From NCBI RefSeq assembly GCF_003480915.1, contig NZ_QUKD01000003.1, positions 248,001-312,000 on the forward strand: DNA of 64,000 bases, in the 5' to 3' direction. Shown here one piece after another: positions 11,301 through 58,633 of this stretch. The notes under the pieces are model-generated. The model had not been told where the DNA came from. It did no database searches and saw only the letters and a list, made by a program, of their open reading frames with translations. Numbering within the stretch: the stretch's first letter is position 1; each line of letters opens with the position of its first letter. The position numbers and the translations under genes were made by a program. The DNA is from Parabacteroides sp. TM07-1AC (lineage in GTDB: Bacteria; Bacteroidota; Bacteroidia; Bacteroidales; Tannerellaceae).

Positions 11301-12767
11301 TGCAGTATTAATTGCCTGAACATCTGTCAGATTAGTAGCAGCTGTTGTTGCAGCGCCATCATATTCAGCTAAAGTAGCTTTTGCTGCAGTTTTAGCTGTT
11401 GCTATCGCAAAAGGATTGCCACAATCAGCTTCAGCTACTAAAGCGACCTTATCTATTAACTCCTTCAAAATAATTTGATCTACTGCTGGTAAAGATATTG
11501 CTTTAAGATCAGTGATCAACGCTGCATAATTAGCACTTGTCAAACCGTCAATCTCAGCATCAATCAAATCTCTGATAGCCTTCTTTTGATCTGCACTAGC
11601 TTTTTTTGCAACATATTCATCTTCCATTTCTTGGATAGCCGTTTTTGCAGCAGTCAAGCTATAACCGGCTTCTGCAACTAAGGCTTTTGCATCATTCTTC
11701 AAAGCAGTTGCAGCAGAAGCTCCATCCACAGCACCAACAAATTCAGCATAAGTTGCAGCAGCTAAAGCGTTAATAGCAGTCTGTTGCAGCACTGCATAAT
11801 CATATTCATGAGTCGCTGCAGTTTGAGCTGAAGTATACTTACCAACAGCAGCAGTCGCTTTTGTTTTTGCTTCAGTAACTGTACTTCCTTTAGCAGCCTC
11901 TGTTGCGATTGTATATACAATCTCTCTTTGAGCAGCTGTATAGCTAGGAGTAATTGTTGCAATAATGGCATCTGCAACTCCAGAAGGAGTATTTACATTC
12001 TTTGCAGCTTGAGCAGCAGCTTGCGCAGCTTTAGCAACAACACTTTCACCAAGAGCCGTTACTGCTGTGTATTCTTTTAACCAAATGTTCTCAACACCAT
12101 TCAACTGATCGCGAGTGAAGCCTAATTTCATCTTGCCATCTGTCGGCTGGATACCCAACATTGAGTTCAAAGCATCAACCCCTAAAACAACTTCCTCTGC
12201 CTGATATGCATCAACAGTAAAAGAACTTGAAGGAGTTGTCGTCTTTGCATACACTTTCTTTGCAGAAATCGCTCCACCATTATTTTCCAAAACCAAAGCA
12301 GAGTCCTTATGGAAATAAGACACTAAATCTTTAGCACCTTTGACAGAAGTTCCTGTTCTCCATTTCCACAAAGAAACATTACCCATTGCATTTGTAGCAT
12401 TTGCACCACCTAATTTTGCATCTTTTGTATCGAATGCAAGAGGAAGACCTGTTGCTTTGTTGATGAATGTATAAGACACACCACCTTCACCATCATCTTC
12501 AGATACAATCGTCCATAAAGAAGACATCAAATCTGCTTCATCGGCAGCAACCATCTTTAATGCCATAGTACCATTGCTCTGTTCCTGCATAACCAGAACA
12601 TTAGCGCCTGAAGTCAATTGATAGGACACACCATTAACAACTGTTTCTGCCTGAGTACCGACACCGGCACTCTTCACATAACTGTTGTAAGGAACAACAG
12701 CCCCCACAGTTCCAACGGCACCCGCCAGCAGGACGCTGGCAACAAGCGTAGAAAACTTTTTGTTCAT
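8382..12767 (-). CDS. Giant phase-variable surface glycoprotein with C-terminal DUF6383-type domain
   Basis: 1461 aa from the ATG complementary to 12765-12767; this start gives MNKKFSTLVASVLLAGAVG, almost the same as the paralogue at 38578-42123 (MNKKFSTLMAASLVLAG). A further in-frame ATG 17 codons upstream would spoil the signal peptide. After the signal peptide come a beta-rich N-terminal part, an Ala-rich predicted helical stretch (about residues 225-660, coded at roughly 10800-12090) that the paralogue lacks, a beta-rich part shared with the paralogue (MFIDTAYVRG, IGDTLVIFRNG), and a C-terminal domain of about 70 aa (EISVIATGGAVIVKGAAGKN to VAVEGEKAVKAIVK). Many D-S/T-(A/I/L/V) tripeptides, the Bacteroidota O-glycosylation motif, are present (DSA, DSL, DTL, DTA, DSV, DSI). 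Expression is probably set by the invertible segment at 12834-13029, which here points the wrong way. Confidence 0.88.
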   Translation of the reverse strand: MNKKFSTLVASVLLAGAVGTVGAVVPYNSYVKSAGVGTQAETVVNGVSYQLTSGANVLVMQEQSNGTMALKMVAADEADLMSSLWTIVSEDDGEGGVSYTFINKATGLPLAFDTKDAKLGGANATNAMGNVSLWKWRTGTSVKGAKDLVSYFHKDSALVLENNGGAISAKKVYAKTTTPSSSFTVDAYQAEEVVLGVDALNSMLGIQPTDGKMKLGFTRDQLNGVENIWLKEYTAVTALGESVVAKAAQAAAQAAKNVNTPSGVADAIIATITPSYTAAQREIVYTIATEAAKGSTVTEAKTKATAAVGKYTSAQTAATHEYDYAVLQQTAINALAAATYAEFVGAVDGASAATALKNDAKALVAEAGYSLTAAKTAIQEMEDEYVAKKASADQKKAIRDLIDAEIDGLTSANYAALITDLKAISLPAVDQIILKELIDKVALVAEADCGNPFAIATAKTAAKATLAEYDGAATTAATNLTDVQAINTAVKALTGVNSKADYDAAVEAVAVGGSSATADEMKAVQKAMKALVAGPGFVKPTAEAVLAVVRSFEDAKLAATEANTIATTVGTAVSSYAGNKAQVLAAINATVQSYYSTEEKAVVKAIHDAADTKTPVAEVIDAAVEKAAEYVGASADYVSLASNINKTDASKTTYLRVDTTYLTTVSSDKYQLAFAVGTFNSALKNSKKQLVDARLQEDFNGRYSFKFTYYPTQDSLMIEPASYIYPFTDKAYADITNTEVATAKAKPEYAGQQVKLAILAKDHREVTVGVADKTNTSTSATTINTRIYLGGNSNYERTTLASGVYFFNLVTDLKSRMDDNGKYRVATYCGDNWKAYENEETTQRFGKAQDFNHMPRTQWVVEQNEGVAGIQTVTITNREFGVRYNNVQLYKAGDNVFAQVGAFANTSVIDTLAYTKVADKYTSDKYLGYKKFEKALDYEKFYNLDYLSGMELGNYVSFKGDSSVYVDLKGGKTFIEFVPASEDTEFGYASTKAGAVQLYKAAYALRVHNETLLTTGSYYVTVGKDGKSYVITHETSGITPSYFVLKENNELVSEEGDTTCYYALQQVSRYVDDKKFYVNSDWNRVGVRDASMAFTVEESCYFTPEKRIATFAVVEDNTPLYRRLGVSKADDGFKDMTVQNGKIYTVNSAAKEYLYEDATSKYSAGKNINFLGLEGKGVDAKSAMFIDTAYVRGNTNMPQYMLVMNPQIVKADTVWCNATSTHKHATLADSLACPHTTITPASITGRYLINAEDSVAAGNNNYVWNTKYTRLAFVDAKHIGDTLVIFRNGKASTAAKDSIFLGNNDHNKVTTARPNGIKNPVFAFRLVNADACDFLIESAGDHKIPSDGTGKWVAIKNGVPVVAAMETYTDAIRDAEIFNIEPTDEVATSTDAIEAGEISVIATGGAVIVKGAAGKNVIISNVLGQTIANTVLSSDEATIAAPKGYVTVAVEGEKAVKAIVK

Positions 12768-12833
12768 AATTCTAAATTTAATATTAATACTAATGTTAAT
12801 GAAAACTTCTTTGTACACGTTCTATAGCTGTAA

Positions 12834-13029
12834 TGACTAGCTAAAACGTTCCTTTTTTCTAGTCATTTTTTCGGGGGTTCGTATCTAAAAGACATAATTT
12901 CGTACTAACTTTGCTATTCAATTGATAAGAAAGCATATAGGTTGAGAAAAAAATATTAAAAAAGGATTGCGCATTCAAAAGTTATAGCTAATTTTGTTGA
13001 CTAGAAAAAAGGAACGTTATTTCTAGTCA
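12834..13029. promoter_or_regulatory. Invertible promoter segment, locus 1 (32-bp inverted repeats, OFF orientation)
   Basis: The left repeat is 12834-12865 and the right repeat 12998-13029; the right one is the reverse complement of the left with 3 mismatches in 32. They enclose 132 bp. Each repeat has TGACTAG/CTAGTCA ends and the core CGTTCC (12847-12852 in the left copy). The only good promoter inside points right, away from the giant gene at 8382-12767. Inversion would aim it at that gene, leaving a leader of roughly 65-70 bases. No recombinase gene is in the window, so the enzyme acts in trans. Confidence 0.85.
12967..12996 (+). promoter_or_regulatory. Promoter inside invertible segment 1, pointing away from the gene
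   Basis: TTG (12967-12969), a 19-bp spacer, then TAATTTTG (12989-12996, a TAnnTTTG match), ending one base before the right repeat. The predicted transcription start falls inside the repeat, as in other Bacteroidota invertible promoters. A second TAnnTTTG (TAACTTTG, 12906-12913) in the same direction lies in a block conserved with locus 2 but has no clear -33 element. Confidence 0.75.
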
Positions 13030-13089
13030 TTTCGAACTTTTCGTATCACACTAATTTCCATAACATTATATATCAAATTCGACCTATAT

Positions 13090-30561: not shown

Positions 30562-30689
30562 ACGATAATTCTTTTCCATTCAGAAATCACCATCAATAGC
30601 TACACCGTCATATCCGGTTAGGAGATTTTATTATTACACGAAAAATGAGCCAATTAGCGTCGTTGTCTTGAAGGCTGTAAGCCTGACCC

Positions 30690-30857
30690 CAAATTAGCCC
30701 AGAGTTTTAACTCTGGGTATCAACAGGTTATTCTCTCGTTTTTTAAGTCCTGCAAGGACGAAACAAGGAATACGAACTTCTTGTAACGCCCTTACAGGGC
30801 TTAGGAGATAGAACGGGTAAAACATTGATACCCAGAGCTAAAGCACTGGGCTAATTT
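30690..30857. repeat. Intergenic palindromic element, about 168 bp
   Basis: Ends are inverted copies of 33 bp (30690-30723 and 30825-30857) with 4 mismatches, each built from AAATTAGCCCAG and CTCTGGGTATCAA. Between them are smaller palindromes (TCCTGCAAGGAC near 30748, GCCCTTACAGGGC near 30788). A GC-rich hairpin (GCCCCGACGGGGC) follows. No coding frame is present. This looks like a non-autonomous repeat common in Bacteroidales intergenic DNA. Confidence 0.7.
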
Positions 30858-30926
30858 GGCTCGCCCCGACGGGGCTCTTAGTTGCTACAACCATCATACA
30901 CTAGCGAATTTGAGAATATACCTTTC

Positions 30927-31036
30927 AACCATTCACCTTTTACATCCATCCTTTGATTATTACCTTCTCATAGGTGAACAGTTAGGGTGAACGGTTTGAT
31001 AAAAAGGTGAACGGTCACCTCTAAACCGTTCACCTT
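30927..31036. repeat. GGTGAACGGT repeats, first cluster
   Basis: Copies or near-copies of GGTGAACGGTT occur in both orientations: ACCATTCACC (30928), AGGTGAACAGTT, GGGTGAACGGTTT, AGGTGAACGGTCACCT and AAACCGTTCACCTT (to 31036). The last two form a hairpin. Confidence 0.7.
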
Positions 31037-31170
31037 CTTATAAAACAGTTATCCGGCAACTCAAAACTATCTTTACACACGGACAATCCAAAACTATCTT
31101 GGCACACAGTATCTTTTACCATCAAACCTACTACCAACTAACTCAGTAGTCACGACTTACAGTTCCGCAC

Positions 31171-31252
31171 ACCACCATCGTCAAGCTTTGCGACCAAGGC
31201 CGTTAAGGTTTGCGACGTCGCTCATCAAGCTTAACGACGGTGGTCGTTAAGC
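31171..31252. repeat. Imperfect inverted repeat of CGTTAAGCTTTGCGAC units
   Basis: Outer arms ACCACCATCGTCAAGCTT and AAGCTTAACGACGGTGGT pair with two mismatches. Inside are further copies of the same unit (CGTTAAGGTTTGCGAC). No gene is seen here, and 31253-31426 shows nothing else. Confidence 0.65.
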
Positions 31253-31426
31253 AAAAAGATTATGACCTTCGGCTTAGTCAGTCCGGACTTTCCATGTAGT
31301 GATCAATTACATACAGGCTAAACATAAGAAGCCCTAAAAAGACAGAGGTTCGTCTACTTTTTTACATTCATAGACAACCCATAACAGGATTTTTTTAATA
31401 CACAGTCAACCAAAATCAGGACGAGA

Positions 31427-31545
31427 CAAGGTGAATGGTTTATGCCAACCGTTCACCTTTTTACGAAACCGTTCACCCCGACCATTCACCCATCACCGTT
31501 TAATTATCAAAGGATGATTGCGAAAAGGTGAACGATGAACGGTTA
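31427..31545. repeat. GGTGAACGGT repeats, second cluster
   Basis: AAGGTGAATGGTTT, AACCGTTCACCTTT, AAACCGTTCACCCC, ACCATTCACCC and AAAGGTGAACGATGAACGGTT occur within 120 bases. They mirror the cluster at 30927-31036, so the motif brackets about 390 bp lying between the fimbrillin and DUF3868 genes. Confidence 0.7.
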
Positions 31546-36983: not shown

Positions 36984-37011
36984 AGCTATATAGTTTTGTT
37001 ATAAAATTATC

Positions 37012-37019
37012 TATCTTTG
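37012..37019 (+). promoter_or_regulatory. -7 element of the asd promoter
   Basis: TATCTTTG fits TAnnTTTG. It leaves a leader of about 90 bases before the ATG at 37115. No -33 box is found at the normal spacing. Confidence 0.5.
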
Positions 37020-37114
37020 CGCACTAATAGTTTACAACTATACGCGCGACCCTGATTTTGGATGCGGTAAAGTTATAACATTTTTTTTATATTACAATTT
37101 AATTAGTGCTCAAA

Positions 37115-38125
37115 ATGAAAGTAGCAATTGTTGGTGTGAGTGGAGCGGTAGGACAAGAATTCCTGCGCGTACTCGACGAAAGAAACTTCCCGATGGATGA
37201 GCTTGTGCTTTTTGGCTCATCGCGTAGTGCCGGACGTGTTTATGACTTCCGTGGTAAACAGTACACCGTTAAGGAGCTTAAGCATAACGACGACTTTAAG
37301 GGAATCGATGTTGCTTTTGTTTCGGCCGGTGGCGGTACATCTGTCGAATTTGCAGAAACCATTACAAAACATGGCACTGTAATGATCGACAACTCCAGCG
37401 CATTCCGTATGGATAACGATGTACCTTTGGTAGTTCCTGAAGTGAACCCGGAAGATGCACTGAATCGTCCTCGCGGTATCATTGCCAATCCGAACTGTAC
37501 TACCATCCAGATGGTCGTTGCATTGAAGGCAATCGAAAAGGTATCGCACATCAAGCGTGTACAGGTAGCCACTTATCAGGCAGCCAGCGGTGCAGGTGCA
37601 ACTGCAATGGCCGAACTGATTAAGCAGTACGAACAGCTGTTGAAGGGCGAAGAACCTACAGTAGAAAAATTCGCTTATCAGCTGGCATACAACGTGATCC
37701 CTCACGTAGACGTGTTCACTGATAACGGTTATACGAAAGAAGAAATGAAGATGTATAACGAAACACGCAAGATCATGCACTCCGATATCGAAGTGAGCGC
37801 AACCTGTGTTCGTGTTCCGGTTATGCGTGCTCATAGCGAAGCAACCTGGATCGAAACAGAACGTCCGATCAGCGTAGAAGAAGCCCGCAAGGCTTTTGCA
37901 GAGGGTGAAGGTATAATCCTGCAGGACGATCCGGCAAACAAAGACTATCCGATGCCTTTGTTCGTAGCCGACAAAGAACCGGTTTACGTAGGCCGTATCC
38001 GCAAGGACATCAGCAACCCGAACGGCTTGACATTCTGGACCGTTAGCGACCAGATCAAGAAAGGCGCTGCCCTGAATGCTGTTCAGATCGCTGAATATTT
38101 GCTTAAAGTAAAGAACATAGGATAA
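37115..38125 (+). CDS. asd: Aspartate-semialdehyde dehydrogenase
   Basis: 336 aa. Reduces aspartyl phosphate to aspartate semialdehyde, the branch point to lysine/diaminopimelate, threonine and methionine, so it is normally needed for cell-wall synthesis. The nucleotide-binding loop is [18 protein letters not shown] (residues 3-20), the catalytic Cys128 is in ANPNCTTIQ, and the substrate-site text [13 protein letters not shown] is present. The ATG at 37115 gives the standard MKVAIVG start; a GTG three codons earlier is not needed. It is a single gene with its own terminator. Confidence 0.97.
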
Positions 38126-38147
38126 CAATTTTGTAATCTTTCTATAT

Positions 38148-38184
38148 AAAAGGGACGGTCTGTTGGAGGCCGTCCCTTTTGTTT
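38148..38184 (+). terminator. asd terminator
   Basis: Arms AAAGGGACGG and CCGTCCCTTT with an 11-base loop, followed by TGTTTT. Confidence 0.88.
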
Positions 38185-38365
38185 TAAAAGTGGTGAATTC
38201 CCGGATTGTCTTCTATAAAAGATAAAATGAGGATTGTTTTATCTTTTATAATCGATAAAATAAGCCTGTTCAATAAAATATTTTGGTGATTTAACAACAC
38301 ACTATTCCATCCGGAGTGATCCGACAATGGAAGTCCTGATCCTACACGAATTACTCATATATAAT

Positions 38366-38398
38366 ACAAAAAGCTCCGATAACCATAGTCACCGGAGC
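38366..38398 (-). terminator. Terminator of the second giant surface-protein gene
   Basis: Arms GCTCCG and CGGAGC, with a T5 run on the - strand. It occupies the same place as the terminator of locus 1. Confidence 0.75.
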
Positions 38399-38432
38399 CA
38401 ATTTTGTATCTGTGTCCTCTCTTCGCAGAGAT

Positions 38433-38470
38433 ACTGACAGATGAACTTTATTTTATTACTTTAGTATTAA
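38433..38470 (-). repeat. Conserved 3' block of the DUF6383 loci, copy 2
   Basis: Identical in all 38 bases to 8229-8266. Flanking bases on both sides are similar but not identical. Confidence 0.85.
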
Positions 38471-38509
38471 TATCTACCGCCTGTTCCCCCATCGCAGGTT
38501 ACTTTGCAA

Positions 38510-38529
38510 GGGCGGTTCACGAACCGCCC
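38510..38529. repeat. REP-like palindrome at the locus 2 3' end
   Basis: Arms GGGCGGTTC and GAACCGCCC around AC. It fills the slot that holds a different palindrome at locus 1 (8311-8337). Confidence 0.85.
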
Positions 38530-38577
38530 CTACGCACGGTAAACAATTTAGAATTTTATTTTCAATTTGTAAATTGC

Positions 38578-41500
38578 TTATTTTACGATTGCCTTTACAG
38601 CAGCTTCGCCTTCAACAGCCACTACTACAATACCTGCCGGAGCAGAGATAGTAACTTCGTTAGAAGAAGCAACAGTGTTAGCAACCTGCTGTCCAAGTAC
38701 GTTAGTGATCACTACATTCTTGCCTTCAGCACCCTTAACAACTACAGCACCGTCGATAGTTGAAACACTGACAGCAGAAGCGTCGATAGCTTCGTTGTTT
38801 ACAGCATCCTGTGTTTCTTCTTCGTTGATACCGAATACATCACCTCTTTCATAAGTCGGAACAACAACTACTGTACCGTTGATCCATTTCAGATAACCTT
38901 CGTTGGAAGCTGCTTCTTCGTTCGCCTTCACGTCATCTTTGTCAACTGAAGCGATATAGTTCTTATACTGAGTTTGAATTTTGAAAGTCTTATCGCTTTC
39001 GTTAGCAGGATTTACATAACGGAATGCGAACTTAGCAACATTGAAGTCAGGAGTATCCAATTCTAATTTAACTGAATCACCGTTGTTACGGATGATATAC
39101 AGAGTGTCATTGATATGAATACCATCTACGAATGCTAGCTTAGCCAGGTTTTCACCAGCTTCACCTTCATTGATATAAGGATTGTTATGCAAATGAGTTG
39201 CACCGTATACATTAGCTGTATCGATCAGGTTGACCAAATAGCGAGCTGTTACCATACGGTCTGTTCTCGGGTGACCAGGAACTGTACAAGTATCAGGATC
39301 GTGAACGTCAGCATTTACAGCCAACAGATACTGCCAGCAAGTATTCGGGTTTTCTTTTGTACCACGGTTGATATAAGCTGTATCAACAAACATAGCCGGG
39401 TTGATCTTGTCAAACTGATGAACGTTGTCAATATTCAGGAAGCTCTGAACTTCGTCTTCTACTACAGAGTTCTTGTCAGCCTTTTCATACAATACCTGAG
39501 AGTTGTTGTCTGCACGATAAATACTTACGATTTCACCGAAGCCTTTAGCTACTTTGTGATATTCAGGAGCATCCAAAGAAACCAGTTTAAACAAATCATT
39601 AGAGTTAATCTGTTCCCAAGATTCTTCTACCTGAATCTGACCTTGCTTAGTTGTTGTTGCACCGAACAATTTCTTGCTCAGATCCAAAGTATAATATTTA
39701 TTATCTTTAGATATCTTACCAGCTACACCGATGATATTGAATAAGCCGTTTGCTTTTTTCTTCAATACAAAGCTATTATTTGCAGTCAGACCTGCTTCAG
39801 AGCTATAGTCTTTAGAATCCGGATCGCAATACATTGCATCTTCATCCAAACCTACTTTATTCTTATCGATATAAGTCATATACTCTTTGTTTCCAGCATT
39901 CTGGAATGCATAAGTCGGAACGAACAGAGTATCAGCAACAGCCTTGAAACCTTTCTTATCATAATCATAAGAGTTGCTAATTACAATTGCAGTGTCGCCA
40001 GTTGCAACTACACGCCAGTTAACAGAATAATCTTTTTCTTTTGTCAAACCAAGCAAATGCTTACCTGCATGATTTTCTGTCACATAGAAGTCAGTTTCTT
40101 CTGTTGAAGCAACAGCCAGTTTATACTGAGTATCTTTGATTTCTGTTTCTTTGTAGTTTGTATAGAAATCAGCAACTGTCAATTTAGGATCAACCGGGTT
40201 GATGATAAATGTATCACGTTCTCCAAAGCTGAACATAGCTTCGTTATCATCATAAGAAATAGTATACTTGTTATTAGCTGCATCCAACACATTCAGATAC
40301 AATGCATCAAATTTAGCAGTTGCTTTAGAACCAGCTTCACGGTTTGTGAAAGTGAACTGTGTTTCAGAATCTTCATCTGACAATGAAACTACCCACTGAG
40401 CTTCGGGAACAGCCTGCAAATATCTAGCAGCTTCAACCAATTCAGGAGAATAGTTACCTTCGTTATCCAAACCTAAGACTTTACCATTCTTAGCTTTCAA
40501 ATTTTTATCTGTTGTAACGAATGTAAGTGTTACATAACGATCACGGAATGGGTTGTTCTTCTTATCGTATGCATTTACTCTTGTATCAGAAGCAATTGCA
40601 ATATTCAAAACGGTAGGAAGTTCTTCCGTTGTAGTCAAATAGATCTGAGGATTAGTATCTGTTCCAGCTTTTACTGTTGTCAAATAAAGCTCATCATCTC
40701 CTATTTGGATAGCTACAATTGATTTTTCGTCCGAATTACCTAATACTGTTACTTTCTCTGCATCATCAATTTTACTTACCAAAGCCAATCTTTCACCAAT
40801 ACCAGTAACATTTTCCCACTGGGTATCAGCAAAAGCAAGGTACTTATCACCAACTTTTAGATATGTAGAACCACTTTTTGTTTCCAGATAAAGCAATTTG
40901 CCAGCCAATACATTTCCATTGTTAATAGTAAGGCTAGTTTCTGCATCAACCGGTCTTGTCAGATTCAGCATAAAGCCATTACCTAACAATGCATTCAAAT
41001 CGTCTGCATCCCATGCAGTAATAGCTGCATCTGCATCAACGCTACCATCTGCTTTTACCTCTACAGTAATATCCTGATTATCATTAGAAACAGAACCCTT
41101 ACCAGCTACAACATTCTTGTTACCTACAACAAGAGCAAAGTCTGCAGGAAGTTCTGTTTTTGAAACAGTAGAGTTAGACAAAGCATCAATAACTGTATTA
41201 GCATCAGCATTATTTACAGACAGAGCCTGAGTGCTCTTAGTATTATAGTTAGCTGCCATATCAATAACAGCCTGCTGGAATACTTCAATTTCTGCATCTG
41301 TAGCATCTTCTGGTAAACTTACCTGAGCACTATAATAATAAGATTCTCCTTTTGATTGACGAACATCTGCATATTCGAATACACTTCCTTCAAAAGTATT
41401 TTGAGAAGCGATATCAGCAGCAGCATTAGTCTTACCTGTCAATCCTGTAAAAGTAAGAGCAGTTGACAGATAAGTAGCGTTATCGCCAGTTGTCACTTTC

Positions 41501-42123
41501 TTTTGAATTGCAAGATTGTTATCTTTGATCTTCAAACCTGCAACATCATTTCCTTTAACAACAATGCCATAAGTCATGAACCCCTCTAAAAGATTAGTGG
41601 CTTCTGTTATAGTATTATTAGAAATAGTAGCTTTTTCAACACTTGCATCAAGTACAATACCCGTTTTATTTGCAGTTGGCTGATTATTACATGTATTTAC
41701 AGTGATAGGAAGATTCTTTACTGTAACATTATCCGCACTAATTTGTAACTGACCGACAATAGCACCATCACCCTCAGCTGTAATTGTTATACCTTCTACA
41801 TTTACATTTAAGAAGTTTGCACAATTTCGTAGATAACCACTACCAGACCACTTTATGCCATAAGTAGGAAATGTTATTTCTTCGGCAAATACAATCTCAT
41901 CACCTTTTACAATGCCATCCTCTCCTGTTTTAAATTGCCATACATCAGTATTAGTTTCTTGGCCATTTTGGGCATCCCCTTTCCAATCTGTAACAGTTGT
42001 AGTGATGTCATTAAGATCAGAAATACTTTTAATTACGTACTTCTCTGCCCAAGCATCACCACTCCACAGCGAACCGGCAAGCACTAAGCTCGCCGCCATA
42101 AGCGTAGAAAACTTTTTGTTCAT
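38578..42123 (-). CDS. Giant phase-variable surface glycoprotein with C-terminal DUF6383-type domain (paralogue)
   Basis: 1181 aa. Signal peptide MNKKFSTLMAASLVLAG to about residue 26. Residues about 95-290 have the look of a right-handed beta-helix (VEGITITAEGDGAIVGQLQI, ADNVTVKNLPITVN, KATISNNTITEATN). The C-terminal half parallels the protein at 8382-12767 (MFVDTAYINRG, INDTLYIIRNN) and ends with the same type of domain (SVSTIDGAVVVKGAEGKNVV to VEGEAAVKAIVK). D-T-(A/L) glycosylation tripeptides are frequent (DTA, DTL). It lacks the Ala-rich helical insert of its paralogue. It probably forms a surface layer after O-glycosylation. Its control segment is at 42200-42394. Confidence 0.88.
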   Translation of the reverse strand: MNKKFSTLMAASLVLAGSLWSGDAWAEKYVIKSISDLNDITTTVTDWKGDAQNGQETNTDVWQFKTGEDGIVKGDEIVFAEEITFPTYGIKWSGSGYLRNCANFLNVNVEGITITAEGDGAIVGQLQISADNVTVKNLPITVNTCNNQPTANKTGIVLDASVEKATISNNTITEATNLLEGFMTYGIVVKGNDVAGLKIKDNNLAIQKKVTTGDNATYLSTALTFTGLTGKTNAAADIASQNTFEGSVFEYADVRQSKGESYYYSAQVSLPEDATDAEIEVFQQAVIDMAANYNTKSTQALSVNNADANTVIDALSNSTVSKTELPADFALVVGNKNVVAGKGSVSNDNQDITVEVKADGSVDADAAITAWDADDLNALLGNGFMLNLTRPVDAETSLTINNGNVLAGKLLYLETKSGSTYLKVGDKYLAFADTQWENVTGIGERLALVSKIDDAEKVTVLGNSDEKSIVAIQIGDDELYLTTVKAGTDTNPQIYLTTTEELPTVLNIAIASDTRVNAYDKKNNPFRDRYVTLTFVTTDKNLKAKNGKVLGLDNEGNYSPELVEAARYLQAVPEAQWVVSLSDEDSETQFTFTNREAGSKATAKFDALYLNVLDAANNKYTISYDDNEAMFSFGERDTFIINPVDPKLTVADFYTNYKETEIKDTQYKLAVASTEETDFYVTENHAGKHLLGLTKEKDYSVNWRVVATGDTAIVISNSYDYDKKGFKAVADTLFVPTYAFQNAGNKEYMTYIDKNKVGLDEDAMYCDPDSKDYSSEAGLTANNSFVLKKKANGLFNIIGVAGKISKDNKYYTLDLSKKLFGATTTKQGQIQVEESWEQINSNDLFKLVSLDAPEYHKVAKGFGEIVSIYRADNNSQVLYEKADKNSVVEDEVQSFLNIDNVHQFDKINPAMFVDTAYINRGTKENPNTCWQYLLAVNADVHDPDTCTVPGHPRTDRMVTARYLVNLIDTANVYGATHLHNNPYINEGEAGENLAKLAFVDGIHINDTLYIIRNNGDSVKLELDTPDFNVAKFAFRYVNPANESDKTFKIQTQYKNYIASVDKDDVKANEEAASNEGYLKWINGTVVVVPTYERGDVFGINEEETQDAVNNEAIDASAVSVSTIDGAVVVKGAEGKNVVITNVLGQQVANTVASSNEVTISAPAGIVVVAVEGEAAVKAIVK

Positions 42124-42199
42124 AATTCTAAAATTTAGTATTAATAATAGTGTTAATGAAATATATGTTCTTCTTATAAATTGTCTCTTCTAAATAGAA

Positions 42200-42394
42200 T
42201 GACGAGAATAAACGTTCCTTTTTTCTCGTCATTTTTTGAGGGTTTGTTACCATAAAAGACAATTTCGTACTAACTTTGCTATTCGGTTGATAAGAAAGCA
42301 TATAGGGAAGAAAAAATTATTTTGAAAAAGATTGGAGGTTTAAAAGAATGTGGTAACTTTGCTGACGAGAAAAAAGGAACGTTTATTCTCGTCA
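42200..42394. promoter_or_regulatory. Invertible promoter segment, locus 2 (perfect 32-bp inverted repeats, OFF orientation)
   Basis: The left repeat 42200-42231 and right repeat 42363-42394 are perfect reverse complements and enclose 131 bp. The ends are TGACGAG/CTCGTCA and the core CGTTCC is at 42213-42218 in the left copy. The interior shares with locus 1 the blocks AATTTCGTACTAACTTTGC and TTGATAAGAAAGCATATAGG. The promoter inside points away from the gene at 38578-42123. Confidence 0.88.
42332..42361 (+). promoter_or_regulatory. Promoter inside invertible segment 2, pointing away from the gene
   Basis: TTG (42332-42334), a 19-bp spacer, TAACTTTG (42354-42361), one base before the right repeat. 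Spacing and placement are the same as at locus 1 although the spacer sequence differs. Confidence 0.78.
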
Positions 42395-42478
42395 CTCGTT
42401 TTTCCCTCCATAATTTTTGATTATCAAACTTCTTATTAGATTTATGTTCATTAATAATATAATAATGACATTAATATA

Positions 42479-42492
42479 TGTACGTATGTACA
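42479..42492. repeat. TGTAC-N4-GTACA palindrome beside invertible segment 2
   Basis: TGTACGTATGTACA, 85 bases beyond the right inverted repeat, counterpart of 13095-13108 at locus 1. Confidence 0.6.
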
Positions 42493-42881
42493 TTATTATA
42501 TAGAAAAGTAAACTTTTCCTATTAGCACGAATTGACCACACACACAACAAGCTTATCAACAAAGAATTACTAACAAACAGAGATGTAATTATATCATCTC
42601 ACATCTACTTTCATTCTGATCGGATGAAGTGTTCAAACCCTAAGAGAGAACCACTGAAATACTAAAATCTAGATATTGGCGAATTAAGGGCAATTCTCCT
42701 ATGTTTCAAATACACAATAATAACTTTACAAAAAAACAGAGCATACTTTACACTTTAGAATACTATAGGTTATAAATAAGGAAGGAGTGCGTTCCTTATT
42801 CAAATTATAGGAGAAAATGGCTTAATTATAGGGAGTTTTAGAAGTGAAAGTCCTAAGAATAGTTCTTATATAAAACGGGAA
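42493..42881. other. Non-coding stretch with no recognised element
   Basis: AT-rich DNA between the locus 2 control region and the terminator of the SusCD module. I see no convincing reading frame, RNA or repeat. Confidence 0.5.
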
Positions 42882-42919
42882 AAAGGGTGACGTCATAAAC
42901 AATCGCGACGTCACCCTTT
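42882..42919 (-). terminator. Terminator of the second SusC/SusD module
   Basis: Perfect 13-bp arms AAAGGGTGACGTC and GACGTCACCCTTT with a 12-base loop; on the - strand the stem is followed by TTCCCGTTTT. It closes the module directly after SusD, so no enzyme gene belongs to it on this side. Confidence 0.82.
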
Positions 42920-43041
42920 CAGATGTTTATCTTCAAAGGACAGATACGGTTTTACACAGGATGATTCCGTAATTATAAATTACAGGCAGGTACCAATTTA
43001 TCTCGTTGAGCTGCTTTAATAAAATAAAATCACCTTTTACT

Positions 43042-44976
43042 TTATTTATCTTCCCAGCCTTTCGTCTGAATTAAGTTCGTGTTCAACAATAATTCACCTT
43101 TCGGGATAGGCCAGTAGTAACGGTAATCGGACCATGGTAATGTGCCAGTTTGAATATTTATACTTTTCGGATAAAGAATGATGAAACCTTCTTCATCTAA
43201 AAAGACATCTTTATTGGCAATTGCCGTCACTGCTGTTTCGCGGATACCGGTTTCCGGATCTACTACCCCATTGTTGTAATCTCCATTATAAAGAGCCTGC
43301 ATCTCTTCAGTAAATTTTACACCTCTCATCGGAACAGTCAACAGGCCTGCCGCCTTCCAACGCATTAAATCCCAATAACGGAGGTCTTCCTGGGCCATCT
43401 CAACACGTCTTTCACGACGTATCTCACGCAATAAGGGGGAAACCGTATAATCCAACTTTTCTCTGTAAATAGCATCCAAGCGAGGGTCTGCCGGAATATT
43501 TCCCATATTCAGCTTAGCTGTTGGATATTTCTCGAAGTCGAACCCGGCACGTAGACGCAACTTATTGATAGTTATATCAATATCATTCTGCGAGATTGTG
43601 CCCAGTTCACATTTTGCTTCTGCATATATCAGCAGAGCTTCTGCATATCTAAACTCAATAGCCGATTGCGTTGAGCCACTGGCTCTCTGGTAGTTCACCA
43701 GGTCCGGTTTCCAATGTTTGATGAATCGGTAGCCAGACTGTTCAGTACCAAGATATTTCAGGTTAGGATAGGTTATTCCATTTTCGTTGATGCCATATAC
43801 TCCTGTGTTTCTGTTCCAGACGGTGATATATTCTCCCGGTTTACAGATTGTCTGCGACATACGGGGATCGCGATTGTTCAACTCGCTCCATTTTCCATAT
43901 CCTTCAAACAGCGGGTTTACTTCATAATTACCTTTCGAACCACCGATATAGACAGGACGTCCGTCTTCGCACAGATATTCATCGACCAGACTCTTTTGAG
44001 CACAAATACCCATGTGATTATTCTGGTCATAATAACGAAGCAGGTCATTGCCAATCTTATTATCAAAGCTATATTCTACTCCCAAAATGGCCTCCGGATT
44101 GGTTCTAATTTCGGTATCAAACTGAGCGAACAGTGCCCAATAAGCATCATCATTTCCATTGGTAAACAATTCATATCGTCCCGATTTAATCAGATAATCG
44201 GATGCTTTAACAGCTTCTTCCAACCATACATTAGCAGTGTTCTGCAAATTCAATTCTGTGTGGTATTTCCGGAAAGTTCCTTCATTCAGACAGATTCTTG
44301 CTTTCAAAAACTGAGCCATATCCTTGTTTATACGACCTACCGAGTTAGGTGTTGCAACTTCCGGAAACCATTCAATGGCACGGTTTATGCAAAACAACAC
44401 CGAGTCCATCACCAATTCTCTCGAATCACGCGGCGCGTACAGTTCTTCCGAGTCTATGTTCAAGTCGCGGCTAAGCCAGGGTACATCACTAAAAATCTGT
44501 ACTTTCTTAAAGTAGTCCCATGCCTTGAAAAAATAAGCTTCAGCAGCATAAGCCTTTTTCTTATCCTCGCTAATAGGCGCTCTGTCGTAGTTTGTCAGGA
44601 AATAATTTACGCGACGTAAATCTCCCCAACTCCATCCATTGTAATTATCATTCAAAGGAACGGTATAAGCATTAGTCAGTCTGACGTTCACATTCTGACC
44701 GCTACGAACTGCATTATCTGAAAAAGCATCGCCATAAGCAATGTGGCTTCCTCTAAAGTTCAAAGGTGCAACGTATGGATCCTGGTTATGCCCTCGGGCA
44801 TAGATACGGTACATACCATTGAGATAAAGCTCCAGGTCGGTTTCCGTGTTCCAGAAGTTTTCACTTACTATATCGTCTTTGGGAGGACGGTCCATAAAAT
44901 CGTCATTACAAGCAAAAAGGCAAAATGACAACGCTGATAAAGCCAGCACTTTTATATTTGAACTATGTTTTCTCAT
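43042..44976 (-). CDS. SusD/RagB-family outer-membrane nutrient-binding lipoprotein
   Basis: 644 aa from the ATG giving MRKHSSNIKVLALSALSFCL; an ATG eleven codons upstream overlaps the SusC stop and is less likely. The lipobox is LFACNDD. MDRPPKDDIVSENFWNTETD is the usual SusD N-terminus, and RINKDMAQFLKARICLNEGT, RYAEALLIYAEAKCELG and RREIRRERRVEMA-type text confirm the family. The C-terminus is LLLNTNLIQTKGWEDK. It is similar in motifs to the SusD cut by the right window edge, which shares APRDSR-LVMDSVL. Partner of the SusC gene 13 bases upstream. Confidence 0.93.
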   Translation of the reverse strand: MRKHSSNIKVLALSALSFCLFACNDDFMDRPPKDDIVSENFWNTETDLELYLNGMYRIYARGHNQDPYVAPLNFRGSHIAYGDAFSDNAVRSGQNVNVRLTNAYTVPLNDNYNGWSWGDLRRVNYFLTNYDRAPISEDKKKAYAAEAYFFKAWDYFKKVQIFSDVPWLSRDLNIDSEELYAPRDSRELVMDSVLFCINRAIEWFPEVATPNSVGRINKDMAQFLKARICLNEGTFRKYHTELNLQNTANVWLEEAVKASDYLIKSGRYELFTNGNDDAYWALFAQFDTEIRTNPEAILGVEYSFDNKIGNDLLRYYDQNNHMGICAQKSLVDEYLCEDGRPVYIGGSKGNYEVNPLFEGYGKWSELNNRDPRMSQTICKPGEYITVWNRNTGVYGINENGITYPNLKYLGTEQSGYRFIKHWKPDLVNYQRASGSTQSAIEFRYAEALLIYAEAKCELGTISQNDIDITINKLRLRAGFDFEKYPTAKLNMGNIPADPRLDAIYREKLDYTVSPLLREIRRERRVEMAQEDLRYWDLMRWKAAGLLTVPMRGVKFTEEMQALYNGDYNNGVVDPETGIRETAVTAIANKDVFLDEEGFIILYPKSINIQTGTLPWSDYRYYWPIPKGELLLNTNLIQTKGWEDK

Positions 44977-44989
44977 ACTATCATATCTT

Positions 44990-47900
44990 TTAAAATCCAA
45001 CTTGTACACCTAAAGCAACACTTCTCATCTGAGGATAGGAAGTTGACAGCAAATCCGGGTCGTATACACCGGGTAATTCTGTAATTTCAAACAAGTTAAA
45101 GCCTGAAACATAGACTCTGAGTTTACTCATCTTAATCTTGTTCGTGATTTCTGCCGGAACAGTATAACCCAGAATAGCCTGTTTCAAACGTAGATAAGCT
45201 CCGTTAAACATGTAAGCCGATTGCGTATACCAGTTCTGCGAACGACGGGCCCCATAAAGCGGATATTTGGCATCCGTCCGTTCCGGTGTCCATGAATTTT
45301 CATAAACGGTTTTACTGCCGGGACCATCTTCATCTCCCCAATATGTTTTATCGCTAATCCAGACATCTCTTTTGGCAACTCCCTGGAAGAAGAGATTCAG
45401 GTCGAAACCTTTCCATGCAAAATTTGCTGTCAAACCAAACTTCAGGCGTGGTGTATTATTTCCAAGAACTTTCAGGTCGCCATGATCGTCTAATGTATTC
45501 ATACCTCTGTTTACTTCGCCATCTCCATTGATATCTTTATACATGATATCGCCCGGATAGTAAGCACTATTCGATTCGTGCGGACGATGCAGGTTGTTTC
45601 CGTTTACGTCTGTATATTGGATAATCAGGTTGTCAGCAATATCCCCTTCCTGCAGAATGCGATCGGTTTCATATCCCCAGATTTCACCTACTTTCTTTCC
45701 TGTATACAAAGAGCCCAAACTACAATTGTCGTTGCCATTGAAGAGAGCGACTTCGGTCTGATAATCGGACAACACAAAGTTCAAATCGTAAAAGAAACCA
45801 TTTGAAAGGCGATCTTTCCATCCAATGCTCATCTCCCATCCGTGTGTTCTCAGCTTACCGGAGTTCACCATAGGAGCACTGGTTCCGAGCACTGACGGAT
45901 AAGTTGAACCGTCCATAATGATATCTTTCGTTTCACGTCTGTAGATGTCGAAAGAAAAGTTCAGTCTGTTGGTAAGTAAAGAGATATCCAAACCGCCATT
46001 GATAGTAGTAGCCGTTTCCCAGGTAAAATCCGGACTAATCAATCCGGGAGGATTCACCTGATAAGGACGTTGCCCGTTAATCATAGCACTCGACTGACTG
46101 GAACCCATTCTGGAATAGAAACCATAGTTGGCCACATTCTGATTGCCGATCGAACCATAGGAAGCTCTTATTTTTAGATTATCCAACCAACTACGCGTAT
46201 CGGCCATAAAACTTTCTTCCGAAAGACGCCATGCAGCAGAGAAAGATGGAAAAAATTTGAAACGCGAGTCGTGCGGGAATTTAGATGAACCATCATATCT
46301 TCCGTTCATTTCAAAAAGATAACGGTCAGAAAAGTTATAGTTAACCCTCATGAATACGCCACGTACAGCCCAATGTTCGTCCACTTCACTTTTCGAAGGA
46401 TTCATGCCATAGGTATTTCCCAGTGTCGGAGCGCCAATACTCATGATTCCTGTATTTCCTGCAGACAACTGTTCTTTCTTCCAGACTTCCTGGTTGAAAC
46501 CTACCAATCCTCCCAATGTATGCTTGCCAAATGTCTGATTATAATCGGCATATATATTAGTTGTGAAAAGCTGTACATCTTCTTTCGTTTTACTGATACG
46601 TCCTGTTTCCGTATTAGTCGCAATGTTTAATGCTTCCCAGCTATCCTGAATATACTGAAATTCGGGTTCCACGTCTTTTACATCATAAGAAGAAGGACGA
46701 TAGGAGAAGTCGGCTTTCAATTTTAATTGTGGCAAGACCTGATATTCCGGACTTGCAGTGAATACGGCTACACTTCTGTCTGTTCTTTTGTTTCTGTTGC
46801 TATAAGCATAAGCCGAAACAATGCTGTTGGTCGGAGTATTGGGAACCGGGTCATTCGGTCCTGTCAACAAGGGCATATTCTGATTCCATTTCCCCTGATA
46901 TAGAATAACCGACCAGGGATCGCCTTTATAAGAAAAAGGTAATGGTTCGTTATAACGTGTTGCGTTATATGACAATTTGATATTGACACTGAACTTGTCA
47001 TTTATCTTCGCATCCAGATTAACCATTCCGTTATAACGACGCATATTGTCATTGCGGAGTTTATAAAAACCATCCTGATCCTGGAAGCCCAGCGAAGCGT
47101 AATAGCGCAAGGCTTCAGAACCTCCGGAAATACTTACGTTATGCTTTTGCGTAGGAGACCAGTCTCTTACCATCATTTCAAACGGGTCAAAGTTTCCAAC
47201 CCACCAAATAGATTGCTGGTTGCTTCCCGGCTCATACATCCAGGCATTTTCGGGAACAGGATTATCTATATATTTTTGTAATGCTTCCAGGCGCATATCA
47301 TCTTCTGTTGTTCTGGAACCACCTGTATAGACTCTGTTCATTATTCTTGCATATTCGGCATCATAAGAGTTCATGAAATCCGGACGTGCTGAAGGATGAT
47401 TCCACTGTACATCATACGAATATTGCACTCTTCCTTTACCTTTCTTCCCTTGCTTGGTAGTCACCAGAATAACCCCATAAGCGGCACGCGCACCGTAGAT
47501 GGCCGAAGCAGAAGCATCTTTAATAACAGAGATACTTTCCATATCATTCGGATTTAAAGCACTAAGGTTAAAATTCTCCATCTCGATACCATCTACCAAA
47601 ATAAGAGGGCTGCCATTATCAACCTGCCATGTTCCGCTGCTATTCTTCGACATGGATGTTGCACCACGCACATTATAAGAAGCAAAAGTGTTAGGTGCGC
47701 CGTTGGATATATTGACATTCAGGTTGGGCACAACCCCTTGTAGGGCTTGGGCTATATTTGTAACAGGGCGACTTTCCATAACTTCAGCCGAAACGGAAGA
47801 TACCGCACCTGTCAGATTCACCTTTTTCTGTGTGCCGTAACCTACAACGACAACCTCATCCAATGTTTGCGTATCTTCTTTCAATATAACCGATATATCG

Positions 47901-48445
47901 GTCTTGTTTCTGACTGATACATCCTGTGTCATATAGCCAATATAAGACACTTCCACCACTTCACCTTGCTCCAAAGTTAACGAAAACTTTCCATCAAGGT
48001 CTGTTATAATACCGTTTCTCGTTCCTTTTTCCACTACGTTAGCACCGATGACAGGTAATCCGGACTCATCTTTTATAGTACCTGTAATTGTTTTCCTCTT
48101 CTCCTGCTGTGGTTGTGTTGATACAGGTGCAGGTTTTATCAGAATTTGATTTTCTTTAATTGTAAATACAGCTCCCGTACCTTTCAATATCTCTGTCATC
48201 GCCTCTTTTACAGGTTTTTCAGAAATGTTCACGGACACACGTCGGTCTTTATTAATTGTCGATTCGCTGTAAGCAATAGATAATTTTGTCTGATTTTCCA
48301 CTTCCTCAAAGACATCGGCCAATGTGGCATTTTGCTTGTTGATATTTACGTTTTGTGCCGATATACTTGTGGTTATGAAGAAAAGGAACAAATAGGTAAA
48401 TATCTTTCGTAAAGATTTACAGGATAAATTGTTATTCTTTTCCAT
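44990..48445 (-). CDS. SusC/RagA-family TonB-dependent transducer and receptor
   Basis: 1151 aa. Signal peptide to about 30, then an STN domain (about 33-100, ATLADVFEEVENQTKLSIAY), a carboxypeptidase-regulatory-like domain (about 117-195, LPVIGANVVEKGTRNGI), a plug starting at LDEVVVVGYGTQKKVNLTGA with the signature PLILVDGIEM, and a barrel ending SVALGVQVGF. The STN domain shows it can signal to the FecR protein encoded upstream. The 138-base gap before it contains a hairpin (48514-48550), so SusC and SusD may be transcribed from a sigma-dependent promoter of their own. Confidence 0.95.
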   Translation of the reverse strand: MEKNNNLSCKSLRKIFTYLFLFFITTSISAQNVNINKQNATLADVFEEVENQTKLSIAYSESTINKDRRVSVNISEKPVKEAMTEILKGTGAVFTIKENQILIKPAPVSTQPQQEKRKTITGTIKDESGLPVIGANVVEKGTRNGIITDLDGKFSLTLEQGEVVEVSYIGYMTQDVSVRNKTDISVILKEDTQTLDEVVVVGYGTQKKVNLTGAVSSVSAEVMESRPVTNIAQALQGVVPNLNVNISNGAPNTFASYNVRGATSMSKNSSGTWQVDNGSPLILVDGIEMENFNLSALNPNDMESISVIKDASASAIYGARAAYGVILVTTKQGKKGKGRVQYSYDVQWNHPSARPDFMNSYDAEYARIMNRVYTGGSRTTEDDMRLEALQKYIDNPVPENAWMYEPGSNQQSIWWVGNFDPFEMMVRDWSPTQKHNVSISGGSEALRYYASLGFQDQDGFYKLRNDNMRRYNGMVNLDAKINDKFSVNIKLSYNATRYNEPLPFSYKGDPWSVILYQGKWNQNMPLLTGPNDPVPNTPTNSIVSAYAYSNRNKRTDRSVAVFTASPEYQVLPQLKLKADFSYRPSSYDVKDVEPEFQYIQDSWEALNIATNTETGRISKTKEDVQLFTTNIYADYNQTFGKHTLGGLVGFNQEVWKKEQLSAGNTGIMSIGAPTLGNTYGMNPSKSEVDEHWAVRGVFMRVNYNFSDRYLFEMNGRYDGSSKFPHDSRFKFFPSFSAAWRLSEESFMADTRSWLDNLKIRASYGSIGNQNVANYGFYSRMGSSQSSAMINGQRPYQVNPPGLISPDFTWETATTINGGLDISLLTNRLNFSFDIYRRETKDIIMDGSTYPSVLGTSAPMVNSGKLRTHGWEMSIGWKDRLSNGFFYDLNFVLSDYQTEVALFNGNDNCSLGSLYTGKKVGEIWGYETDRILQEGDIADNLIIQYTDVNGNNLHRPHESNSAYYPGDIMYKDINGDGEVNRGMNTLDDHGDLKVLGNNTPRLKFGLTANFAWKGFDLNLFFQGVAKRDVWISDKTYWGDEDGPGSKTVYENSWTPERTDAKYPLYGARRSQNWYTQSAYMFNGAYLRLKQAILGYTVPAEITNKIKMSKLRVYVSGFNLFEITELPGVYDPDLLSTSYPQMRSVALGVQVGF

Positions 48446-48513
48446 GAATAATATTATTTTTGTTGTTGAATACTATTTTTATAATTAAGCCTTATGAAAT
48501 GTGTTCGATTTCA

Positions 48514-48558
48514 AACCGGAGAGTTGTGCAGCAAATAAAACTCTCCGGTTCTTTTTTT
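48514..48558 (+). terminator. Hairpin between anti-sigma and SusC genes with a + strand T run
   Basis: Arms AACCGGAGAGTT and AACTCTCCGGTT, followed on the + strand by CTTTTTTT. All surrounding genes are on the - strand, where no T run follows the stem. It would end antisense transcripts efficiently and may act as a weaker stem in the operon mRNA. Confidence 0.6.
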
Positions 48559-48583
48559 CATGGTATCGTTTGTGTGTTCATTA

Positions 48584-49558
48584 TTAATAAATATATACTT
48601 TATCTCCATCTATCTTATATCTGAATCCGGCTATGATTTGCTGCAAAGTATAAAAGACCTCTTCCAACGTCTCATCATGCAGGAATTTGACTGTCAAGCG
48701 TTCGTCTTTCAAACCTTTGGAATTAAGATAAACCGTTACTCCATACTTTCTCTCAATCTCGTTGATAACAGTATACAACGAAACACTTTGGAATACCATT
48801 TGTCCTTTTTCCCAAGCCAGTACATAATCCAGCCGAGTATGTTTATGTTCGCTTTTTCCCGTTTCCCTGTCATATATAACCTGTTCTTCCGGATTAAGAA
48901 TATAACTTTCCTGACTGGAATTAATGTCCACTTTAAGCTTTCCTTCTACCAGTGAAGCTACTGTTGTTTCGGCTTCCGGATAGGATGATACATTAAAAAC
49001 AGTTCCTAAAGCTTCTACGGCCATATCGTGTGTTTTAACAATAAATGGCTTCTTCTTATCTGAAAAAACAGAGAACTTAGCCTCTCCACTTAAATAAATA
49101 TTACGAATCTTTCCTTTAAATTCGGCAGGATATAATAAAGAACTTCCGGAATTAAGCAAGACCTCCGATTTATCCGGTAAAACAACAGAACGAATTTCGC
49201 CTGCCGCAACAAAACATTCTACCCATTCGATCTCCTCCTGAGTATAATTCTGCACATACTTCCATGAAAACCATACACTAAGTAAAGGAATAAGCAAAAC
49301 AGCTGCTATCTGTCCCCACTTTTGCAATGAAAAAGAGAGTCTCTTTCGCACAGGAAATCCCAATCGTCTTTCAACATGCTTGAAGGAACTTTCTGTCGAG
49401 GCATCGGAATGAATCTCCAGTTCTTCCCAAATCCGGAAAAGAGCTTCATCTTTCTCTTTCCTGGAAGAAGAGAAAAACCAATGGGTAAACCCCTTTCGAA
49501 TCTCTTCCGGATGATCTTTCTTAAAGAAACTTTCTATGATCTGATATACTTTCGACAT
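48584..49558 (-). CDS. FecR-family anti-sigma factor
   Basis: 324 aa. A cytoplasmic helical N-terminus (1-75) precedes one membrane segment (about 80-97, IAAVLLIPLLSVWFSW). The periplasmic FecR domain (about 110-205) holds the FVAAGEIRSVVLPDKSEVLL and GEAKFSVFSDKKKPFIVKT motifs, and a DUF4974-like C-terminus (about 250-324) follows. It should keep the sigma factor encoded 70 bases upstream inactive until the STN domain of the SusC partner signals ligand binding. Confidence 0.93.
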   Translation of the reverse strand: MSKVYQIIESFFKKDHPEEIRKGFTHWFFSSSRKEKDEALFRIWEELEIHSDASTESSFKHVERRLGFPVRKRLSFSLQKWGQIAAVLLIPLLSVWFSWKYVQNYTQEEIEWVECFVAAGEIRSVVLPDKSEVLLNSGSSLLYPAEFKGKIRNIYLSGEAKFSVFSDKKKPFIVKTHDMAVEALGTVFNVSSYPEAETTVASLVEGKLKVDINSSQESYILNPEEQVIYDRETGKSEHKHTRLDYVLAWEKGQMVFQSVSLYTVINEIERKYGVTVYLNSKGLKDERLTVKFLHDETLEEVFYTLQQIIAGFRYKIDGDKVYIY

Positions 49559-49628
49559 AATATTATTTTCCGTTATCTATTATTAAGACACGCGAAAATA
49601 AACTTACACCCAAAAAAAAGAAGGTATT

Positions 49629-50171
49629 TTATATAAAAAAGGAAGTGAATAAAAATAATGTCTTTTTAATTTCTTTCAATGCCAGGTTCAAGTGGTTCTC
49701 TACGGTCTTTTTAGAAATACCCATGCGGGTCGCTATTTCATCATTAGTCAGCCCATCTTTCCGGCTCATTTCATAAATAGCTTTACGCTTGGGAGGCATA
49801 CGACTGACAGTCAATTGTTCCAATAGTTTTATCTCACGAGCATACAACTCTCCTTCAATTGTAAACTCGGTTTCTCCATCATATTCTTCTAGATAATTCT
49901 CTTCCAAATATTTATGCCGCAGATAATTCAAAGCTATGTTTTTGGCCATTCGGTAAACATATGAATTAAACGATACGACGTTCCTCAACTGTTCCCTATT
50001 CTCCCAAATTCTCATAAAAACATCCTGAGCCAATTCCTCAGCTATAACCTCCGATTTAATAAGATGGCTGATAAAATATTTAACTTTGGGGAAATAATTC
50101 ATAAACAAGCATCTGAAAGCCTCATGACTTCCTAACACCAGTTCTTCTATATATGATGTATCCTTTTCCAT
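49629..50171 (-). CDS. ECF RNA polymerase sigma factor (sigma-70 family, Bacteroidota type)
   Basis: 180 aa. Region 2 is at about 15-60 (LFMNYFPKVKYFISHLIKSE, AQDVFMRIWENREQ) and region 4 at about 120-170 (MPPKRKAIYEMSRKDGLTND, the recognition part ISKKTVENHLNLALKEIKK). It is the first gene of the second sigma/anti-sigma/SusC/SusD module. It differs enough from the first sigma (6361-6897) that cross-control is not implied. Confidence 0.93.
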   Translation of the reverse strand: MEKDTSYIEELVLGSHEAFRCLFMNYFPKVKYFISHLIKSEVIAEELAQDVFMRIWENREQLRNVVSFNSYVYRMAKNIALNYLRHKYLEENYLEEYDGETEFTIEGELYAREIKLLEQLTVSRMPPKRKAIYEMSRKDGLTNDEIATRMGISKKTVENHLNLALKEIKKTLFLFTSFFI

Positions 50172-58518: not shown

Positions 58519-58633
58519 AAGAACCAGGTACGCGGATGACGCGGATTGAGCGGATTTGAACGGATTTGAACGGGTCGAATCATTTAATCCGTTTTGATCC
58601 GCCTAATCCGTGTCATCCGCGTACCTGGTTCTT
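58519..58633. repeat. 115-bp palindromic repeat with GCGGATT tandem units
   Basis: The ends pair as AAGAACCAGGTACGCGGATG against CATCCGCGTACCTGGTTCTT without mismatch. Inward the arms carry degenerate units (GCGGATT, GCGGATTT, ACGGATTT) that pair with the reverse units on the right. It lies between converging genes and can act as a terminator. Similar repeats are common in Bacteroidales. Confidence 0.85.

Follow-up and report, generated by a model that had tools for sequence, protein, structure and literature searches.

A probable Mpi-type invertible promoter before one member of a large S-layer-like protein family in Parabacteroides

Introduction

Does a promoter enclosed by inverted repeats in front of a large surface-protein gene act as a switch of this gene, and does the finding of two such loci in the OFF state within one assembly imply that the family is expressed one member at a time? 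These questions are raised by positions 42200-42394 of the window, i.e., the whole stretch of 64,000 nucleotides of Parabacteroides sp. TM07-1AC that was analysed. The locus is read here with high confidence as a promoter switch that sets one gene of a large phase-variable S-layer-like family ON or OFF, most likely by Mpi-type inversion. In the proposed mechanism, an invertase would recombine two 32-bp sites at the central 2 bp of each and thereby turn the 163 bp that separate the site centres. A TTG-19-TAnnTTTG promoter facing the gene would lead to transcription, and the same promoter facing away, as in the assembly, would leave the gene silent.

Structure of the switch and its target gene

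The two arms of the locus, 42200-42231 and 42363-42394, are complementary at 32 of 32 positions across a gap of 131 nt, exactly as the initial annotation had described them in front of the 1181-aa gene. In 100 first-order Markov resamples of the window, no perfect inverted repeat (gap 60-300) was longer than 15. The distal arm (42363-42394, plus strand) is the 32-bp site TGACGAGAAAAAA-GGAACG-TTTATTCTCGTCA, which is near-palindromic itself and has AA as its central dinucleotide; the gene-proximal arm (42200-42231, minus strand) is a copy of it in inverted orientation. The interior of the segment (42232-42362, plus strand, 131 bp) bears a -33-type TTG box at 42332-42334 and, 19 bp downstream, a -7-type box TAACTTTG at 42354-42361, both on the plus strand, and the latter stops 1 bp short of the distal arm. 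The same spacing is found in the ON units L076 and L208. An AT-rich leader of 76 nt (42124-42199, minus strand) separates the proximal arm from the start codon and is conserved throughout the family. Thus a Bacteroidales-type promoter flanked by inverted repeats stands directly upstream of its target gene, and because this promoter (42332-42361, plus strand) faces away from the minus-strand gene at 38578-42123, the switch is OFF, in agreement with what had been proposed for this second locus. The boxes are promoter-like, and the promoter in 42232-42362 is presumably functional. A promoter scan and an Rfam search of the window returned nothing relevant to the switch.

The other unit of the window, locus 1, has its invertible segment at 12832-13031 with arms at 12832-12865 and 12998-13031 that match at 31 of 34 positions, and it is OFF as well. 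Its promoter, TTG-19-TAATTTTG, had been described as equal in place and direction to that at 42200-42394; the likeness holds for position, spacing, and direction, and the box differs by one base. The target gene (8382-12767, minus strand) encodes 1461 aa when counted from an MNKK start, within a product of 1478 aa, and is 94% identical to a P. goldsteinii gene in L105, the unit of which is OFF too. The products of both window loci end in a C-terminal DUF6383 domain.

The 1181-aa product of the gene at 38578-42123 (minus strand) has an N-terminus that looks by eye like a signal peptide, and its DUF6383 domain covers residues 1108-1180 (38584-38802, minus strand). The protein is probably secreted and S-layer-like, with a presumed location at the surface. 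Its close relatives in the species genomes occupy six loci, all in Parabacteroides, the nearest at 51% in P. goldsteinii. The likeness of its tail to a T9SS type A sorting signal is weak: TIGR04183 (cut-off 23) was not reached by the whole protein (13.9 bits) or by the tail alone (19.7 bits), and 4 of 17 DUF6383 tails showed such likeness at E up to 0.01, so that DUF6383 could be called a T9SS signal only weakly. No solved structure resembled the DUF6383 tail at E up to 0.1. An AlphaFold model of the 1181-aa protein was too poor for a fold search and was dropped (mean pLDDT 45.3, with 70-80 in the tail region only; pTM 0.30).

Related units in seven Parabacteroides genomes

Strong DUF6383 matches (85 bits or more) were surveyed in seven genomes of other Parabacteroides than that of the window, and the DNA upstream of them was read. 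These genomes are G001 (P. goldsteinii), G003 (P. gordonii), G010 (which we take to be P. distasonis ATCC 8503), G016, G017, G018, and G038; weak matches, under about 40 bits, stand outside the survey. Invertible units precede DUF6383 genes in 82 cases, the two of the window not counted, and 79 of these are OFF and three ON (an ON fraction of 3.7%, 95% interval 0.8 to 10%). The OFF/ON counts are 16/0 in G001, 20/0 in G003, 16/1 in G038, 8/0 in G016, 7/1 in G018, 3/1 in G017, and 9/0 in G010, where the nine units have the same promoter module. OFF is the usual state in assemblies, and two OFF loci are the norm.

The units share an upstream element, TTTCGTAC...TTGATAAGAAAG, which lies at 42263-42298 (plus strand) in the window and closes with the 12-mer TTGATAAGAAAG (42287-42298), some 55 bp ahead of the -7 box. 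Of 82 DUF6383 units, 81 carry the 12-mer exactly or with one mismatch, whereas all 14 units before other genes have two or more mismatches to it. A role as recombination enhancer was considered and rejected as less likely, because the 12-mer is missing before those other genes (14/14) and is kept, exactly, in the seven of seven fixed-ON slots described below, which have no recombination sites. From this pattern it is read as a putative family-specific promoter element, separate from the recombination machinery.

The 12-mer also served to call orientation, with 0-1 mismatch admitted; when as many as 3 mismatches were tolerated, several unrelated promoters received an ON or OFF label. L108 (at 5387) was weakly ON by the 12-mer rule and was tallied OFF from the arm-box result. 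Two genes of G010, L188 and L189 (= L221 and L222), fall below the local tail-HMM threshold and are included in the 79:3 tally as OFF, the 12-mer being exact and pointing away. Outside the tally are the broken copies L136 and L137 of G038, a short copy in G016 (L154/L223), the partial L150 at a contig start, and the genes that lack the module. In front of L136 an exact 12-mer points away from the gene, and this broken DUF6383 copy may add a further OFF unit.

In each of the seven genomes, exactly one of the assessed strong DUF6383 genes (L146, L129, L138, L196, L201, L210, and L215) has the promoter module facing the gene and no repeats; such a gene is termed fixed-ON here. The fixed-ON position is common to G001, G003, and G038 (83-93% over about 1 to 1.3 kb upstream) and, separately, to G016 and G018 (94% from -505 to +25). 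The standing protein probably comes from the fixed-ON member, and rare variants from the invertible ones. Some other DUF6383 members have neither module nor repeats and may use promoters of another kind. No module within one mismatch was found upstream of L185, L161, L171, L176, and L178. Four DUF6383 genes, L122, L124, and L130 of G003 and L141 of G038, have a distinct common upstream region without module or repeats; over 155 nt, that of L141 is 84-85% identical to those of L122, L124, and L130.

Inversion, recombination sites, and invertase

Matching slots of different species were found in opposite states. The interior of L076 (G038, ON) is 96% identical to that of L121 (G001, OFF) when inverted and 61% as it stands, with the flank at 93% and the leader at 98%. 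Similarly, L200 (G018, ON) and L191 (G016, OFF) agree at 86% when inverted and 49% as they stand, with 81% in the flank and 100% in the leader. Control pairs in the same state agree at 85%, 87%, and 97% as they stand and at 55-56% inverted. In both opposite pairs, the inverted stretch runs between the centres of the two arms. The opposite interiors at two matching slots imply that such switches flip, and they agree with the invertible-promoter build that had been assigned to 42200-42394. The window's own slot was seen in one orientation: the first control pair (85%) consists of the window unit and L072 of G038, which align as they stand, and hence L072 is OFF too. By analogy with the two opposite pairs, 42200-42394 probably inverts in this strain.

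Each arm is a near-palindrome of two 13-bp halves around 6 bp. The central 2 bp are identical between the arms in 81 of 82 units, a set which comprises 80 units of the seven genomes and the two of the window, without L188 and L189; random pairing within genomes gave a mean of 39.3 and a maximum of 54 in 5000 trials. Between units the central dinucleotide varies (AA 32, AT 27, TA 14, GT 4, AC 3, TT 1, and GA 1). The whole 6-bp core is equal in both arms of 69 of the 82 units, and 12 units differ in it outside the central 2 bp only. Serine recombinases with a 2-bp overlap need matching central dinucleotides. Equality within units together with variation between units is thus the pattern which a serine invertase with a 2-bp overlap needs. 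The dinucleotides AT and TA are symmetric and do not by themselves force inversion over excision. The sole unit with differing central 2 bp is L108 (G001 C11:119577-119937), which has three tandem site copies before one DUF6383 gene, so the pair chosen by the script is possibly wrong. With three sites, several different inversions, or else an excision, would be possible at this unit.

A Mpi-family invertase scored above the NCBIfam cut-off in all seven genomes (317-342 bits, cut-off 272). Weaker Mpi-like serine recombinases occur in all seven as well (13 scanned, L231-L243), with 168-253 bits, below the cut-off of 272. None of the 27 window ORFs scanned is a recombinase. The serine invertase acting in trans on the window unit is most likely of the Mpi family, with Mpi rather than a paralogue as the presumed agent. 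Similar sites lie at several unlinked promoters, namely the two of the window, 80 before DUF6383 genes of the seven genomes, and 14 upstream of genes outside this family in G001, G003, and G038 (L066, L067, L079, L081, L082, L093, L097, L099, L100, L101, L103, L112, L113, and L117). Ten of these other targets were scanned, and they include HU-like DUF4469 proteins, ECF sigma factors, and a DUF3575 protein; further ones are a polysaccharide-synthesis enzyme, a TonB receptor, and two repeat-rich proteins. The distances from site to site fall into groups of 163, 173-174, and 184-186 bp, spaced by roughly one turn, with 177-180 in G010. Helical phasing of the two sites was considered and dropped, given the G010 distances and a broad phase concentration without a peak at 10.5.

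Other explanations of these observations are less probable, to different degrees. That the repeats are decayed or static, and the orientation no longer changes here, could be argued from the 79 of 82 units in one orientation and from L072, which is oriented as its match in the window; this is most improbable, since the arms in the window are perfect and two matching slots were caught in opposite orientations. Inversion by a tyrosine recombinase, as at many Bacteroides capsule and S-layer loci, is very unlikely. The site does parse as 13-6-13, with half-sites of 13 bp and a spacer of 6 bp that is the same in both arms of most units, and Bacteroides S-layer and capsule repeats lie near site-specific integrases as far as the available excerpt of PMC12118408 goes. 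However, the cores that differ between the arms never do so at the central 2 bp, the one exception, L108, is a unit whose pair may have been wrongly chosen, and no tyrosine recombinase was found among the 27 window ORFs scanned. As to expression of one member at a time by exclusion, which would have the window loci OFF since another invertible member is ON, no genome of the seven has two ON invertible units and three have exactly one. Still, this reading is unlikely: four genomes have no ON invertible unit at all, a fixed-ON member is present in every one of the seven, and the three ON units among 82 would land in three different genomes with a probability of 0.57 under independence. At this probability the tally neither supports nor excludes mutual exclusion. 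The initial annotation had seen in the two OFF loci a sign of exclusive expression, and this was rejected, OFF being common and the spread of the three ON units being compatible with independence; its companion idea, that another member is ON elsewhere, finds partial support by analogy with the seven related genomes, all of which have a fixed-ON gene and three of which have an ON unit. Switching by Mpi-type inversion, with OFF as the default, is preferred to these alternatives.

Exchange of coding bodies between slots

Slots of G001 and G038 were paired by an upstream flank of at least 85% identity over at least 150 bp. Among the matches listed, the coding bodies are alike in 7 of 13 pairs (64-94%) and unlike in the other 6 (under 50% or partly alignable), and the mismatch of bodies extends to the fixed-ON slot. 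Resemblance between matching slots is lost 18-49 nt inside the gene and returns towards the C-terminus, in many cases in the last 200-230 nt. The 1181-aa gene follows this pattern. Its slot and C-terminus match L072, with 88% from +2680 onward; between the stop of similarity at +32 and this point, the body (39445-42091, minus strand) is unlike the gene in the matching slot of G038. The whole protein is closest to L139 and L145 (51%), which sit in another slot. Within window 37000-43100, the first 1.2 kb show 94% identity to P. gordonii and 92% to P. goldsteinii, and 2.4 kb match G038 at 88%. The body of the fixed-ON gene L201 (G018) is 81% identical to the OFF gene L195 of G016, with 42% to the fixed-ON gene of G016. 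From these comparisons across species, coding bodies appear to be exchanged between slots.

Similar flanks around unlike bodies might also arise by fast divergence in place or by rearrangement of whole slots. The bodies are hypervariable throughout, and many pairs at 30-48% have no better partner elsewhere. In one of the six unlike pairs, L110/L077, the flanks conflict: upstream L110 corresponds to L077 and downstream to L078, and L116 matches L077 in body and downstream. Against both accounts stand L114 of G001, which by its flanks pairs with the slot of L069 but is 95.5% identical to L068 of G038, and the fixed-ON body L138 of G038, which is 73% identical at the protein level to the OFF gene L089 of G003 and only 30% to the G001 gene in the common fixed-ON slot. 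These accounts are therefore regarded as unlikely, and exchange of bodies is preferred.

The exchange may be part of a two-tier coat, in which one fixed-ON slot and many silent invertible slots have their bodies moved between them by homologous recombination. This proposal is tentative, and we hold it with less than even confidence. The exchange would proceed through the common leader, the signal-peptide start, and the DUF6383 tail, and the fixed-ON slot would be built from the same promoter module without recombination sites. A population would thereby renew its standing coat through swaps of cassettes, with promoter inversion as a form of bet-hedging.

Relation to known systems

The family at hand most likely corresponds to the S-layer-like glycoproteins of Parabacteroides. 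P. distasonis has a surface glycoprotein (S-layer) family whose expression is switched by inversion, according to the excerpt of PMC8400631, and its phase-variable glycoproteins (Fletcher et al., 2007) are cited in the parts available of PMC9409006 and PMC10773633. As far as these excerpts go, the window switch is alike in genus, in the kind of surface-protein family, and in control by inversion; it differs in belonging to another Parabacteroides, in its coding bodies, and in a slightly different site.

The capsule promoters of B. fragilis are inverted by one global invertase, Mpi (Krinos, 2001; Coyne, 2003; PMC12632263, in excerpt). Many promoters are likewise served here, with a Mpi-family protein in every genome surveyed and the signature of a 2-bp overlap. 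Unlike the capsule promoters as they are described there, the targets here are mostly single large surface-protein genes. In B. thetaiotaomicron, about 1 cell in 1,000 expresses the S-layer of the BT1927 type when phage is absent (PMC12548429, in excerpt). An invertible promoter stands before an S-layer protein there, as is likely here, and the rare expression resembles the OFF bias of the present units, whereas the repeat, CCGTTACCTABVRAGTAAC, and the site-specific integrase nearby are different (PMC12118408, in excerpt). The vls/vmp systems of Borrelia, as far as the partial sources describe them, have one expression site and many silent copies, and they share with the present family common ends and variable bodies. 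In contrast to them, the silent copies of Parabacteroides have their own invertible promoters, and exchange was seen between species only.

The switch is of a known kind, that of phase-variable S-layer-type glycoproteins and Mpi inversions, and a fixed-ON slot with exchangeable cargo is possibly new. Among the matches listed for the literature on DUF6383 and Parabacteroides variation, the excerpts describe no fixed-ON slot or body exchange. In the context of the seven genomes, the switch belongs to a repertoire that is OFF by default and comprises as many as 20 invertible surface-protein genes in a genome, with a family promoter element apart from the recombination sites and a fixed-ON cargo that varies by species. 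The variation of the 2-bp overlap from unit to unit may limit recombination between units. If the exchange of cargo also holds true inside a single species, promoter inversion and cassette replacement, which are best known as strategies of pathogens, would occur together in a gut commensal.

Other features of the window

Further inverted repeats lie at 30689-30859, 30920-31543, and 58519-58633, with arms of 35, 96, and 48 nt, respectively. An Rfam match to Acido-Lenti-1 RNA (RF01687) at 30831-30876, barely above threshold, overlaps the first of them. On the distal side of the switch, 43042-50171 holds a SusC/SusD pair, a FecR-like gene, and an ECF sigma factor.
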